Below, piece after piece: positions 30,388 to 35,759 of a stretch of 64,000 nucleotides of DNA. The notes under the pieces were generated by a model. It was given only the letters and a program-made list of their open reading frames with translations. It had not been told where the DNA came from and did not search any database. The stretch comes from Alcaligenes sp. SORT26 (GTDB taxonomy: Bacteria; Pseudomonadota; Gammaproteobacteria; Burkholderiales; Burkholderiaceae_B). A program made the position numbers and the translations under genes. The DNA lies in NCBI RefSeq assembly GCF_017377875.1, contig NZ_CP070975.1, forward strand, positions 3,782,001-3,846,000, in the 5' to 3' direction. Numbering within the stretch: the stretch's first letter is position 1; every line of letters begins with the position of its first letter.

Positions 30388-30433
30388 GTATGGTGGCGTT
30401 TGCAGGCCAATTCACCCTACACTAGCGCTCATT

Positions 30434-31774
30434 ATGACGCACTCCGCCCTTTCTCTGTCCCATGCCCAGTTTTTCCTTAGCCTGGGCTTCATGCTGCTGT
30501 TTCTGGCTCTGGAGCTGGGACTGGCCTGGGTGCTGCTGTATTTCAAGACCAGAACCTTTGGCAACAATGCCGCCGCCTGGATGGGGGCGTACCGCTTCTG
30601 GGTGCGTTTGTTTGCGCTGGCCTTTATTTTAAGCTTTGCCGCTTCCATGCCCGTGCTGATCCAGTTCGGCAGTGTCTGGCCGGGCCTGATGGAACAGGTA
30701 GGCGATGTCATCGGCCCCATGCTGGCCGCCTCCATGCTGTCCCTGTTCATCTTCAAATCCTGCTTTTTGGGCGTGATGCTGTTTGCCCAGCGCATGCTCT
30801 CCAATCTGGTTCATACCCTGGTGGTGCTGATGGTGGCCTTGGGCGTGACCGTCACCGCTTTCTGGTTGGTCGCGATTGTGGCCTGGATGCAAGTGCCGAC
30901 CGGTGTGGATGTTATTGAAGGTCATTACGTCGTCATGGACTGGCTGGATGTGTTGAGTACGCCTGCCTTGCCCTGGTACGCGGGTCTCTTGCTGGTGGGC
31001 AGTTTGCTGACGGTGGCCTTTTTCATGTTGGGTGTGACTTGCGCCCAGACGATGCAAAGACCGGTCACGGATCAGGAACGTCTGGCGTTTCGCAGCGCCT
31101 TGTTTTTAGGTGTGGTGGCCTGGGTTGCCCTGGTGTTTGTGGTGGTGGGCAATGGCTTCATGACTGCCGAGCATCAGCCTGCCAAGGCGGCGGCCGCTGC
31201 TGCCTATTGGGAAAGTGGTTCACAACCGGACTTGATTCTGGTGGCCGCCCCATCGGCCATGCAAGACAGTGTCCTGGGTGTGCTGCGCTGGTCGCATGCA
31301 GGTGGGCGCTGGTTGGGTCGTAATGACAGCGGCATACTGATGGGCCTGGATCAGTTCTCCGAGGCCATGCCACCTGTAACTCTGACGTTCTGGTCCTTCC
31401 GCGTGGCTGTGCTGGCGGGTGCTGTGATGCTGTTTCTGCTGCTCTGGGTGCTGTTGCGTACGCGCCGTTATGGCTTGGATCCGCACTCTCTCTCTTATAG
31501 AGAGCGTCAGTTAATGGTGGCCGCATCGGTGCTGGGCTGGATTATGTTGCTGGCCGGGGCCGCCTACGTATTGCTGGGTTTTCTGCCCTATCTAGTGGGT
31601 AACGATATTCAGGCCGTGCAGGTACAGAGCAAGGAAAGCGTCTTTACTGTCGGGCTGGGTGTGCTTTCTTATGGCCTGGTGTACGTCTTGTGCATGATTG
31701 GCTTTTTCCAGAAGCTGCGGCATGCAGTACGTTTCGGTGTGGTGCCGATCGCGCGTCATCGGGGGCGGGCATGA
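30434..31774 (+). CDS. CydA-like (cytochrome bd subunit I homologue) lacking haem ligands
   Basis: A 446-residue polytopic membrane protein that aligns along its length with subunit I of cytochrome bd/CIO quinol oxidases. Shared landmarks are LSHAQFFLSLGF at the N-terminus, VLIQFGSVWP near 74, VGDVIGP near 89, AWMQVPTG near 150, the Q-loop-like AEHQPAKAAAAAAYWES near 245 and TFWSFRVAV near 318. By motif alignment to E. coli CydA, His19 is Met20, Glu99 is Ser100, Glu107 is Lys108, His186 is Leu185, Met393 is Ala325 and Q-loop Glu257 is Ala256; Lys252 is kept as Lys251. It therefore probably binds no haem and is not an oxidase. The frame is intact. The stop overlaps the CydB-like gene by 4 bases. 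Confidence 0.85.
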   Translation: MTHSALSLSHAQFFLSLGFMLLFLALELGLAWVLLYFKTRTFGNNAAAWMGAYRFWVRLFALAFILSFAASMPVLIQFGSVWPGLMEQVGDVIGPMLAASMLSLFIFKSCFLGVMLFAQRMLSNLVHTLVVLMVALGVTVTAFWLVAIVAWMQVPTGVDVIEGHYVVMDWLDVLSTPALPWYAGLLLVGSLLTVAFFMLGVTCAQTMQRPVTDQERLAFRSALFLGVVAWVALVFVVVGNGFMTAEHQPAKAAAAAAYWESGSQPDLILVAAPSAMQDSVLGVLRWSHAGGRWLGRNDSGILMGLDQFSEAMPPVTLTFWSFRVAVLAGAVMLFLLLWVLLRTRRYGLDPHSLSYRERQLMVAASVLGWIMLLAGAAYVLLGFLPYLVGNDIQAVQVQSKESVFTVGLGVLSYGLVYVLCMIGFFQKLRHAVRFGVVPIARHRGRA

Positions 31775-32820
31775 TTGATTCTTTTGCGAATGCGCTGGGA
31801 CTGGGTGCCCATGATCCGGCGTTCTGGATGCCGCTGGCGTTTCTGGCTCTGTTCTTTTTGATCATTGTGGCTGGCACCGTTCTGGACGGTTTTGATATTG
31901 GCGTGGGCTGCTTGTCCTTGTTGGCGCCGGACTCTCTGCGTCCCCGCATGCTGTCTTTGTTGAGTCCCTGGCGGGATGCCAACGAGTTCTGGCTGTTTCT
32001 CGGTCTGGGCCTGTTTGTCTGCGCCTTCCCCAAAGCCTGGGGGGCGGTGATGGGCGGCTTGTATGGGCCTTTATGTGCTCTGGGTGTGGGCGTTTTCGCC
32101 CGCTCCGTGTCTTTTGAGTTCCGCCTGCGTGCGCCTGTAGAGCGTCAGTCCCGCTGGCAGATGGGCTTTGCCCTGGGCTCCTGGTTGACGGCTTTTTCCC
32201 ATGGCGTCTTGTTGGCTCAAGTCGTGGTGGGCTTTCAAAGCGATTCGGGCTATATCTGGTTTTCTATCTTCATGGGCTTTTGCGCCATCGCGGCCTACTG
32301 CTTGCTGGGGGCTAGTTGGCTGATCATGCGCGAGGCGGGTGAGCTGCGTGCCCGTGCGGTGAACTGGGGACGCCGTTCGGTGCGCTGGTTTGCGGCAGGG
32401 GCCGTCGGTGTTTCGGTGGTGTTGGCCTTTGTGAATGCGGGTGTGTTGCTCAAGTGGAGTGATGGCCCGTATTGGGGGCTGGTACTGTTCCTGTGGGCGC
32501 TGATACTAAGCTGCTTTGTGTCGATTGAAATGAGCCTGCAGCGCATGATCAACAGCAGCTATCGCACCACCACCTTGCCCTTTTTGCTGACCTTGTTTGT
32601 GATGGTGTCCGTCATGGCAGGGCTGGCGTTCAGTTTCTTCCCCTATCTGATTCTGGACGAGATGACGATCTGGGACGCCGCCGCTGGAGTGCCTGCGTTA
32701 AGTCTGATCCTGTCGGCCATTGTGATTGCCTTGCCCATCGTATTGATTTTCAACGTGTGGGTGTATTGGCGCATGTTTGGTTTGTCCCGCCCACCTTTGC
32801 CGCCCAGCTTTAAAGGCTGA
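31771..32820 (+). CDS. CydB-like membrane protein (bd oxidase subunit II homologue)
   Basis: A 349-residue polytopic protein homologous to CydB, which binds no haem itself but forms the heterodimer and a proton path in bd oxidases. Conserved points are VLDGFDIGVGCL near residue 37, WRDANEFWL near 65 (the Asp matching the CydB channel aspartate), AFSHGVLLAQVVVGF near 138, and MTIWDAAA near 298 with the end VYWRMFGLSRPP. Unlike its partner it looks little degraded. ATG 31771 forms an ATGA overlap with the CydA-like gene; the ClC gene starts 8 bases after its stop. No CydX-type small subunit or CydCD exporter is seen. Confidence 0.87.
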   Translation: MIDSFANALGLGAHDPAFWMPLAFLALFFLIIVAGTVLDGFDIGVGCLSLLAPDSLRPRMLSLLSPWRDANEFWLFLGLGLFVCAFPKAWGAVMGGLYGPLCALGVGVFARSVSFEFRLRAPVERQSRWQMGFALGSWLTAFSHGVLLAQVVVGFQSDSGYIWFSIFMGFCAIAAYCLLGASWLIMREAGELRARAVNWGRRSVRWFAAGAVGVSVVLAFVNAGVLLKWSDGPYWGLVLFLWALILSCFVSIEMSLQRMINSSYRTTTLPFLLTLFVMVSVMAGLAFSFFPYLILDEMTIWDAAAGVPALSLILSAIVIALPIVLIFNVWVYWRMFGLSRPPLPPSFKG

Positions 32821-32828
32821 CCTTTTCT

Positions 32829-34601
32829 ATGATTGCCCATTCCGTACTGTCGATGCGCAAGCGTCTTCAGGGTTTCAAGTGGTTGTCTGATATGCCCGCC
32901 ATGCTGGCCTGGGCGGTCTTGGCCGGTATCCTGGGGGCTTTGGCGACCCTGGCCTTTCATCAGGGCATGCGCCTGGTGCAGCAAGTGGTCACGGGACAGC
33001 ACGGCGGTATTGTCGCGGTAACGGAAGGCCTGTCCTGGTACATGCGCCTCTTGTTTCCCACCTTGGGCGGTTTGTGCGCCGGTATCTTGTTGTGGCTGGC
33101 GGGGCGTCTGCCTTCAGGAAGTAATTCAGACTATATGGAAGCTGTGGCCATTGGTGATGGTCGTCTGTCCATCCGCCAGGGCTTGTTGCGATCCTTGTCC
33201 TCCCTGATGACGGTGGCCTCGGGCGGCTCGATTGGTCGGGAAGGGGCGATGGTGCATCTGGCCTCTTTGTCCGCTTCCGCAATTGGCCGTTTCACTCTGT
33301 TTGGTGAAGCTCGCCTGCGCTTGCTGGTGGCCTGTGGCGCAGCAGCCGGGGTGGCGGCTGCGTATGGCGCCCCGATTGCCGGTGCCGTGTTTGTGGCCGA
33401 GATCGTGCTGGGCACCATGACCATGAGCAGCTTCGGCCCCTTGTTGATGGCGGCTGTCAGTGCTCACCTGACCATGCGCATGCTGGGTGGCTATCATGCT
33501 CCCTATGAAATGACGAATGTTCAGGCCGTTGCTGGCTGGGACATCTTGCCCTTTCTGGTGTTAGGTGTGCTGATCGGCTTGGCCGCTCCCGCTTTCCTGA
33601 AATTGCTGAATCTGTTTCGCACGCTCTTCAAGCGCACGGGGCTAGGCTTGCCCCTGCGTCTGGCGCTGGGGGGATTGTTGCTGGGATGCCTGCTGATTGT
33701 CATGCCGCGCGTGGCGGGTAATGGCTTCAGTGTGGTGTCGTCCATGTTGCACAGCGATTGGGCCTGGTATAGCGTCCTGCTTATCCTGGTATTCAAGGTG
33801 CTGGCGACCGGGCTGACCGTAGGTTCGGGCGCTGTCGGTGGTGTGTTTACTCCCGCCATCTTTGTGGGCGCGGCCTTTGGCACCCTGTTTGGTCAGTTGA
33901 CCTTGCTGATCCTGCCTGGTCTGGACTTGCCCTTGTATTTGTTCACTCTGGTGGGCATGGGGGCGTTTCTGGGGGCGGCGACCAGTGCGCCGTTCATGGC
34001 TATTTTGATGCTGTTTGAAATGACGCTCAGCTATCAGTTAGTGCTGCCTTTGATTGTTGCCTGTGTCATGGCCTATTTCGTGTCGCGCGGTGTGGCTGAA
34101 GTGGCCATGTATGAAGTCACCCTGGTGCGCGAGCGCGACGCCTTGCTGCGCCACAAGTTGCGTCACACGACCCTGGCCGAACTGGTGCGCCCGGCGGATA
34201 CCGTGGTCAGCACGACCACCCAAATGCGCGAAGCCCTGCAAATGTTCCTGGATTATCCCGTGCGCTATTTGTACGTGGTGAACGAGGAGCAGGTTTATCA
34301 AGGGGTGATTGCTCAACCTGATCTGACGCGTATGTTGCTGGACGACAACGCGGCCCAGGAGCGCGTGGTGGGGGATATTCTGCGTATGGATTTCGTCAAG
34401 ACGCTCTACCCGAACATGAGTCTGGACGAGGCCCAGGAGCACTTTGTAAACTTCGCCGGAGAGCGCCTGCCCGTATTGAATGGTGACGGCTCGGGTCGCT
34501 TGATTGGTGTAGTCTATAAGTCTGCTGTGCTGGAAAAATACTCCGCCATCAAACGCTCCCTGGATGCGAGCGGCGAAGTGATGCTGGATGCCCGGCGCTA
34601 A
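32829..34601 (+). CDS. ClC-family chloride channel/antiporter with CBS domains
   Basis: A 590-residue ClC protein with about 10-12 membrane helices, then a cytoplasmic pair of CBS motifs (about 449-580, LAELVRPADTVVSTTTQ to ERLPVLNGDGSGRLIGVV) that usually bind nucleotides. The gating-glutamate loop is GGSIGREGA near 131-139 (canonical GREGP), and GAVGGVFTPAIF near 333 is the second anion-binding loop. The first loop reads LPSGSNSD near 97 in place of GSGIP. Whether it is a channel or a H+/Cl- exchanger is not decided by what I see. It begins 8 bases after the CydB-like gene, so the three form one operon. Confidence 0.92.
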   Translation: MIAHSVLSMRKRLQGFKWLSDMPAMLAWAVLAGILGALATLAFHQGMRLVQQVVTGQHGGIVAVTEGLSWYMRLLFPTLGGLCAGILLWLAGRLPSGSNSDYMEAVAIGDGRLSIRQGLLRSLSSLMTVASGGSIGREGAMVHLASLSASAIGRFTLFGEARLRLLVACGAAAGVAAAYGAPIAGAVFVAEIVLGTMTMSSFGPLLMAAVSAHLTMRMLGGYHAPYEMTNVQAVAGWDILPFLVLGVLIGLAAPAFLKLLNLFRTLFKRTGLGLPLRLALGGLLLGCLLIVMPRVAGNGFSVVSSMLHSDWAWYSVLLILVFKVLATGLTVGSGAVGGVFTPAIFVGAAFGTLFGQLTLLILPGLDLPLYLFTLVGMGAFLGAATSAPFMAILMLFEMTLSYQLVLPLIVACVMAYFVSRGVAEVAMYEVTLVRERDALLRHKLRHTTLAELVRPADTVVSTTTQMREALQMFLDYPVRYLYVVNEEQVYQGVIAQPDLTRMLLDDNAAQERVVGDILRMDFVKTLYPNMSLDEAQEHFVNFAGERLPVLNGDGSGRLIGVVYKSAVLEKYSAIKRSLDASGEVMLDARR

Positions 34602-34622: not shown

Positions 34623-35759
34623 ATGCGTACAAAAGCTTGCCAGCGAGGCTTGGCAGGCGGGCTGATTGTCGGTCTTGCCATGCTGTCCGCTGTTCCATTG
34701 GCTACGGCCCAAAATCGTATTGGCTTGGAAAACCTGTCTGCGACCCGTGTGTACGGCGTCGATGAGGCTCAGGCGATTCCTGCCCAGGAGCTCCCGCCTG
34801 TGGAGCCGTTTTTTGATGCCTCACAATGGCATCGCCAGGGTGATCAGGATTTGCCCAGCCCTGCTGCGTCCATGGATTTCTCTTTTTCTGATTTCAGTCT
34901 GAATGGTTCCAGTACCGCCAGCCTGGCTCGCTCTATTCAATATAGTCAGCAGTCTTCGCCTATCTGGAGTGCACGCTGGTTAAGCAGTGCACCTGATCAG
35001 GTTTGGCAGTTCGGTGAGCGCAATTGGCGCTACGTTAATGGCGATGGCCTTGAGCTAACCCTGGGGAATGACACTGTGACCGCACCGGATTGGGCGCGTC
35101 CTGTGGCGCTCGGCGGTATTAATCTTACCCAGCAGTTCGAGCAGGGTCCGACCGGACCGTGGCGTTATGCCTTGGCGGTGGGGGCGTTGGATATGACGGG
35201 CAAGCAAGATAATGGGGATCTGGTGTATGGGTCTTCTGCCAGCAGTCTGATGCTCAGTACGGATGTCACTAGCCGGACCAGTATTGATACCCAAGTGGAA
35301 AGCGCGCGCGATTTTGGGCTGACGGGTTTGGGGGCCACTTATCGTTCGCCAGACTTTGGAGTCTGGCAAGCCAGCGTGGCCCGAGCCTCCCACGCGGTGG
35401 GGCAGGGCTGGCGCTATCAGGCGGCCTATGGTCTGGACGTGCTGGATGATTTGCACCTGCAATGGCAGGGCGAACGCTACGAGGACAATTTCCTGGACTT
35501 AAGCCGTTATCAGGGCATGAAGGTAGACGCGGCCAGCAGCCGACAGGTAGTGGGCCTGTCCGTTCCTTTGCGCCGCTGGGGGGAAGTGCAGACCCAGTAC
35601 GAGGTGCAGCAGGTAGTTGCCGGTGGGGAGAACCGCTACCTTGGGGTCACGCAGCAGTTCTGGTACAGTCCCCACCTTAGGGTGGGTTTACAGGCTCGCC
35701 GTCATCTGGAAAGTCGTCAGTCGAACATCGCGCTGCGTTTTTCTATTCCGATTTTTTAA
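34623..35759 (+). CDS. Putative outer-membrane beta-barrel protein, unknown
   Basis: I do not recognise the family. The 378-residue precursor has a signal peptide with cleavage near ATA-QN (about 29-30). The rest is rich in alternating polar/hydrophobic strands with many aromatic residues, and it ends in ALRFSIPIF. A C-terminal phenylalanine with that alternation is the BAM recognition pattern of outer-membrane barrels. The strands from about residue 180 on (GLTGLGATYRSPDFGVWQAS, LHLQWQGERYEDNFLDLSRY) recall those of fimbrial ushers, but usher domains are otherwise missing. It starts 21 bases after the ClC gene and 9 bases before recQ, so co-transcription with the CydAB-like/ClC operon is likely. 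Confidence 0.6.
   Translation: MRTKACQRGLAGGLIVGLAMLSAVPLATAQNRIGLENLSATRVYGVDEAQAIPAQELPPVEPFFDASQWHRQGDQDLPSPAASMDFSFSDFSLNGSSTASLARSIQYSQQSSPIWSARWLSSAPDQVWQFGERNWRYVNGDGLELTLGNDTVTAPDWARPVALGGINLTQQFEQGPTGPWRYALAVGALDMTGKQDNGDLVYGSSASSLMLSTDVTSRTSIDTQVESARDFGLTGLGATYRSPDFGVWQASVARASHAVGQGWRYQAAYGLDVLDDLHLQWQGERYEDNFLDLSRYQGMKVDAASSRQVVGLSVPLRRWGEVQTQYEVQQVVAGGENRYLGVTQQFWYSPHLRVGLQARRHLESRQSNIALRFSIPIF

Follow-up and report, generated by a model that had tools for sequence, protein, structure and literature searches.

Murali 2021 reportedly describes the CydA' of archaea and Nitrospira as a paralogue of the bd oxidase subunit CydA that has lost its ligands. In the accessible text of another report, this CydA' partners a CydA (PMC12342949). 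In Escherichia coli, E445 is the ligand of haem b595 and E99 that of haem d (PMC6853902), and H186 and M393 are the ligands of haem b558 (PMC5322542), as stated in the available parts of these sources. H19 and E99 sit at the high-spin haems, and sources disagree on the haem bound by H19. We take K252 and E257 to be Q-loop residues of the quinol site, which E257 and D239 presumably serve. Bordetella bronchiseptica has cydAB1 (with cydX), cioAB and cydAB3 (BB4012–4011), the last predicted in print to be a high-affinity bd oxidase (PMC11257404, available in part), and the accessible passages of a 2026 review still list CydAB3 as a bd-type oxidase, biochemically uncharacterised (PMC13367067).

A bd-like gene pair without haem ligands in subunit I

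We analysed a 64,000-nucleotide stretch of Alcaligenes sp. SORT26 DNA (the window). On its forward strand, cydA' (30434..31774) encodes a CydA-like subunit I of 446 amino acids with a short Q-loop, no haem ligands and Lys108 at the E107 position. It is followed on the same strand by cydB' (31771..32820), which encodes a CydB-like subunit II of 349 amino acids that keeps the counterparts of D26, D29 and D58 (D39, D42 and D69) and carries the fixed change of W57 to Arg68. The cydA' stop and the cydB' start overlap in an ATGA (31771..31774, forward strand), and the same 4-nt overlap occurs in 71 of 80 named loci with starts set by alignment. CydA' matched PF01654 at 9.6e-77 (positions 1–415 of 418) and CydB' matched PF02322 at 5.9e-58 (1–302 of 302). 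Both matches being full-length, the pair belongs to the cytochrome bd superfamily by descent; an earlier note on this DNA had read cydA' as full length, in frame and coupled to cydB' by four bases, and the Pfam matches and the overlap agree with it. The window CydA' has 95% protein identity to loci of A. pakistanensis and A. faecalis AU14. The same genome (4.08 Mb) also encodes an ordinary CydA with complete ligands, which scores 575 bits to PF01654 against 258 bits for CydA'.

In a MAFFT alignment with E. coli CydA, the window protein has M20 at H19, S100 at E99, K108 at E107, L185 at H186, A256 at E257 and A325 at M393, and retains K252 (K251) and R391 (R323). Profile-HMM alignments to the solved chains of E. 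coli bd-I and bd-II and of Geobacillus support the same columns, confirming the residue list of the earlier note, which had these six residues lost and K252 kept. To that list we add the losses of E445 (L380), W441 (A376) and R448 (F383); GRQP is absent as well. Read by site, haem b558 is without H186 and M393, haem b595 is without E445, the high-spin haems are without H19 and E99, and the presumed quinol site has K251 and no counterpart of E257. The long Q-loop extension of bd-I and bd-II is absent too (446 amino acids versus 522 in E. coli).

Like the CydA' that is reportedly found in archaea and Nitrospira, the protein is a ligandless CydA paralogue; unlike the subunit of that CydAA' pair, it is encoded in coupling with a cydB'. 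A pairing of CydA' with CydA in place of CydB is not what the gene coupling, or the two genomes without another CydA, indicates here. Because a ligandless CydA' is coupled to CydB, neither subunit of CydA'B' bears haem ligands.

Distribution of the ligandless form

The ligandless form was present in at least 72 of 101 genomes of the bacterial family, whose named members are Alcaligenaceae. In these 72 genes, which include the contig-end fragments L213 and L217, E99, E107 and H186 were never kept, H19 was kept in two, M393 in seven and E445 in two (the E445 position otherwise includes one D and one gap), and the E107 position was Lys in 69 and Arg in 3. Counting H19, E99, H186, M393 and E445 together, 63 genes kept none, eight kept one and one (L056) kept three. 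E257 was kept in 0/72 (one gap) and D239 in 5/72, and the K252 position was K or R in 68/72. Outside the family, 87 genomes of the order had a match at 1e-60 or better, and the 40 relatives that we read from these had H19, E99, E107, H186, D239 and E257 in 40/40, with M393 and E445 in 39/40 and a gap in a fragment in the remaining one. The best 80 of 217 relatives, named orthologues that span Alcaligenes, Pusillimonas and kin, Achromobacter, Bordetella, Paenalcaligenes and others, had H19, E99, E107, H186, E257 and E445 in 0/80, M393 in 6/80 and Lys108 in 80/80. The residues that replace the ligands differ between members and are mostly unable to coordinate iron. Because E99, E107 and H186 were lost in 72/72 family genes and 80/80 named orthologues, and in 0/40 relatives outside the family, the loss is not due to chance, and these sequences indicate that it is a family trait.

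In a profile search of 300 genomes of the order, with a profile that includes rows from some of the genomes that it found, matches below 1e-180 were confined to six genomes of the family, and the best match outside it reached 3.7e-129. In a draw of 398 genomes from the phylum, 1e-130 was reached by the window's own genome and no other.

Several copies depart from the common pattern. L056 (genome G008) is partly stripped: it keeps H19, M393, W441, E445 and R448 and has E99A, E107K, H186S and E257A. Since L056 keeps three ligands, L063 keeps E445 and 7/72 genes keep M393, some members might bind one haem. The Alcaligenes endophyticus copy (L067, 4503-5798, and L087) is shorter, at 431 amino acids, and has a rewritten Q-loop core with no QPAK motif and an Asp at K252. 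In L071 (1311-2773, genome G089), a CIO-B-like cydA is split in two frames, and its readable part has the ligands.

A single origin under purifying selection

In a tree built without the ligand columns from 46 ligandless and 30 liganded rows, all ligandless rows fell on one branch (SH-aLRT 100). A second tree without these columns, from 38 ligandless and 30 liganded rows, omitted the long branches L063, L059, L072 and L060 and the near-copies L055, L092, L087 and L046; it gave a single origin at 100/100 and one ligand-loss change in 200/200 bootstrap trees. The sister of the ligandless branch was L061, a fully liganded CydA joined at 100/99 (99 in the first tree), and its genome, G053, carries a ligandless copy too. 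The trees support descent from a CIO-like subunit: CydA' groups with the liganded short-Q-loop CydA of the order, and it has not kept the haem ligands that are invariant in those relatives. We call these relatives CIO-B-like, a tentative label of our own that equates them with subtype B of Degli Esposti (PMC5322542). CydA'B' resembles CIO-type bd in family match, length, short Q-loop, cydAB pairing and liganded tree sister, and differs from it in the loss of the haem ligands and E257, in the changes of E107 to K or R and of W57 of CydB to R, and in the shift of constraint to CydB'. E99, E107, H186 and E257 were probably lost first, because they are absent from all 72 genes (E257 with one gap); the other ligands appear to have been lost later, perhaps more than once. 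The placement of L056 in the second tree was weak (61/22).

Among 19 chosen close pairs for each subunit, dN/dS had a median of 0.078 and a maximum of 0.255 for CydA', and a median of 0.046 and a maximum of 0.122 for CydB'; on these values we rejected a pseudogene reading. CydB' was more conserved than CydA' in 403/406 ligandless pairs, and CydB was more conserved than CydA in only 8/231 liganded CIO-B-like and 3/15 CIO-C-like pairs, all counts being of non-independent pairs from a comparison that omits L060, L063, L071 and L072. These data show that purifying selection on CydA'B' is strong and that constraint has moved from CydA to CydB. The low dN/dS, together with Arg and Lys residues fixed through different codons, bears out the view that selection has kept the complex. 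In two genomes, G042 and G006, each 99% complete, CydA' is the sole PF01654 protein, and seven of nine genomes checked with PF01654, chosen and not drawn, hold another CydA besides it.

Retained and switched positions at the subunit interface

We took the positions that are 95% conserved in 29 CIO-B-like CydA as a baseline and compared them with 110 CydA' sequences, omitting L060, L063, L072, L213, L214, L215 and duplicates. Positions were classed as kept (same residue in at least 90%), switched (another residue in at least 85%) or lost (old residue in less than 30%). By this measure, 47 baseline positions of CydA' were kept, 9 were switched, including E107, and 37 were lost, including H19, E99, S140, H186, D239, E257, M393, E445 and R448. 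The Q-loop core P249, A253 and A254 was retained. In CydB' (93 sequences versus 23 CIO-B-like ones, after omission of short CydB and duplicates), 43 of 78 positions were kept, 13 switched and 9 lost, and 18 positions that vary among the CIO-B-like rows were fixed.

The E. coli proton path to haem d runs D119A-K57A-K109B-D105B-Y379B-D58B in the available description (PMC6853902). At K57, CydA' has R58, an Arg in 110/110 and 72/72 sequences; the 40 outside relatives have 37 Lys and 3 Arg. The E107 position is K in 108 and R in 2 of the 110. R120 lies at D119, an Arg in 65/72, and D119 is variable in the outside relatives too. In CydB', W57 became R68 and K109 became R120 in 93/93, D58 is kept as D69 (80/80), and the place of D105 is taken by E116 (80/80). 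The fixed Arg and Lys residues are encoded by several synonymous codons. This pattern of conservation suggests that a single functional region survives, the entry path on the cytoplasmic side where the two subunits meet, and that it has become more basic. The kept path and the fixed basic switches therefore lead us to favour a mechanism at an interface site.

Upstream box and neighbouring genes

A -10-like TACACT lies ten bases 5' of the cydA' ATG (30418..30423, forward strand). A consensus promoter scan flagged nothing at the cydA' start; the box emerged from the comparison of loci, in which TA[AC]ACT stood 8–11 nt 5' of the ATG in 65/77 loci, against 0.24% of base-shuffled upstream sequences. 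Because the box is so near the ATG, the cydA' mRNA is probably leaderless or nearly so.

A divergent glnS lay upstream in 76/80 named loci. The downstream neighbours were mixed: the first gene after cydB' belonged to a convergent risS/risA-like pair in 42/80, to recQ/OMP on the opposite strand in 22/80, was clcB in 8/80, and was something else or none recognised in 8/80. The risS/risA-like pair was not first after cydB' in the window or in the three named Alcaligenes loci. In the available portions of two RisA papers we found no cydAB3 data (PMC5020355, PMC10955343). In the window, a clcB-like ClC-family gene begins 8 bp past cydB' (32829..34601, forward strand; NF002505, 710.8 bits versus a cut-off of 482). 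Here it is possibly an operon member with cydA'B'; clcB was in view downstream in 31/80 named loci and within 17 bp in 8/80. We rejected an operon reading of the family from clcB because the linkage is patchy and not general. It remains a weak hint of an anion role, direct adjacency occurring at loci that lack the risSA pair there. Beyond clcB, 34623-35759 encodes a 378-amino-acid protein with no Pfam or NCBIfam match; it stands beside recQ in many relatives and looks like a secreted or outer-membrane protein.

Relation to Bordetella Cyd3

All 15 Bordetella genomes searched had a match with a score typical of the ligandless family; 13 of these matches were full-length, and the other 2 were fragments from poor assemblies. 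The genus is taken as Bordetella because the coordinates in G392 coincide with those of B. hinzii LMG 13501. Each also had at least one bd-I-like match (two in G036 and G402), and only G399 and G402 had a CIO-like match. The published cyd3 deletion removes 2373 bp; it starts 41 nt ahead of cydA3 and ends at nt 994 of cydB3 (PMC11257404, available part). These limits are consistent with some 447 codons for cydA3. A bd-I gene would be longer, so by exclusion cydAB3 would be the ligandless pair. We infer that Bordetella Cyd3 is the same complex as CydA'B', the B. bronchiseptica protein being likened to it through the Bordetella genomes searched and the size of the deletion. The sequences argue against haem in a complex that was published as a predicted bd oxidase. 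The cydB' frame is broken in G092, next to a ligandless cydA' (L206), matching the premature stop that is reported in cydB3 of B. pertussis 18323 (PMC11257404, available part). In the same accessible text, deleting cyd3 alone left growth and persistence at the wild-type level, with no growth or infection phenotype, and cyd3 transcripts were low, like those of flaA. The phenotype-free deletion of what is taken to be CydA'B' counts against the mechanism that we favour.

Discussion

CydA'B' is very probably a haem-free complex that is not an oxidase and is unable to reduce O2, as judged by the loss, in the 72 family genes and 80 named orthologues alike, of ligands that an oxidase requires; the non-oxidase reading of the earlier note gains from the same sequences. 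The trees indicate that it descends from a CIO-like quinol oxidase and arose once, in the ancestor of the bacterial family, and selection has kept it. Because Alcaligenes, Achromobacter and Bordetella keep CydA'B' despite the lost ligands, it probably has a different, non-oxidase job. We propose that the path by which protons enter from the cytoplasm, between CydA and CydB, outlasted the loss of haem, and that R58, K108 and mostly R120 of CydA', with R68 and R120 of CydB' beside D69 and E116, would form a basic, acid-paired site. This site would most likely bind or pass an anion, or gate charge, without redox chemistry. Such an ion or anion site at the interface is a tentative choice, to which we give rather less than even credence, and the same restrained confidence applies to the whole reading in which it is joined to a haem-free, non-oxidase descent. 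Arg and Lys near the cytoplasmic face may merely stabilise the fold, which counts against the mechanism. Among the literature matches listed, judged by titles and the starts of abstracts, none described a bd protein that lacks haem in this way; Murali 2021, the main paper on the superfamily, lay outside that search.

One alternative, which we consider unlikely, is that a quinone or lipid fills the vacated CydA' cavity and that the haem-free dimer is a sensor, a store or a structural partner in the respiratory chain. The ubiquinone-8 of E. coli CydB occupies the place of the CydA haems (PMC6853902 and PMC8951039, available parts), CydB' is the more conserved subunit, and the Q-loop core persists along with a K or R at K252. 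However, E257 is gone from every family gene, D239 from all but five and GRQP from the window protein, and the CydB quinone is described as structural in the accessible text of PMC6853902. The quinone-linked role offered by the earlier note is thus weakened at the Q-loop, although a quinone inside CydB' is possible; a hypothetical ion-conducting role, its other suggestion, fits best with the retained positions. It is improbable that CydA'B' acts as an accessory or dominant-negative partner of an ordinary bd or CIO oxidase through subunit swapping, in the manner of the CydA' of archaea or Nitrospira with CydA. Another CydA accompanies it in most of the nine chosen genomes, but the two near-complete genomes without one weaken this idea, as do the overlap of cydA' with its own cydB' and the switches fixed in both subunits.

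That CydA'B' still binds haem or works as an oxidase, through ligands elsewhere in the protein, seems very improbable to us. L056 does keep H19, M393, W441, E445 and R448, and His430 (69/80), His127 (78/80), Cys110 (77/80) and Met 86, 115, 133, 152, 198, 311 and 332 (at least 70%) are conserved in the 80 orthologues. Yet His127 and Met115 are also conserved in liganded relatives, the replacements at the ligand positions are mixed and mostly unable to hold iron, and in the alignment of the 80 orthologues no conserved His, Cys or Met occupies the position of a lost ligand. Nor was a B. bronchiseptica strain with cyd3 alone obtainable, according to the available text, which says the same of cco, cio, ctaD2 and cyo2 (PMC11257404). 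Decay of the pair under relaxed selection might be read from the broken cydB' frame of G092 and from the finding that just 50% of 14 B. pertussis (Complex II) strains have cydAB3 intact (PMC11257404, available part), but we give it almost no credence: dN/dS stays at or below 0.26 for CydA' and 0.12 for CydB' in 19 pairs each, the fixed Arg and Lys use different codons, and the upstream box is conserved.

Both the Pfam name and the Bordetella papers class these genes with the oxidases, and respiratory models that follow them would hold one oxidase too many. CydA'B' offers a clean example from nature of an oxidase that lost its cofactor sites and is still under selection, for which the liganded L061 and the partly stripped L056 serve as comparisons, and it would reveal what in the bd scaffold remains of use when haem is gone. 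We regard it as possible, though doubtful, that the bd fold has here become a redox-free membrane device: neither subunit would hold haem, the sites for oxygen and quinol would be dismantled, and five basic residues (R58, K108 and R120 of CydA', R68 and R120 of CydB') would have rebuilt the proton-uptake channel as an anion or charge-gated conduit. If this is true, the Bordetella tally of bd oxidases includes one such device.
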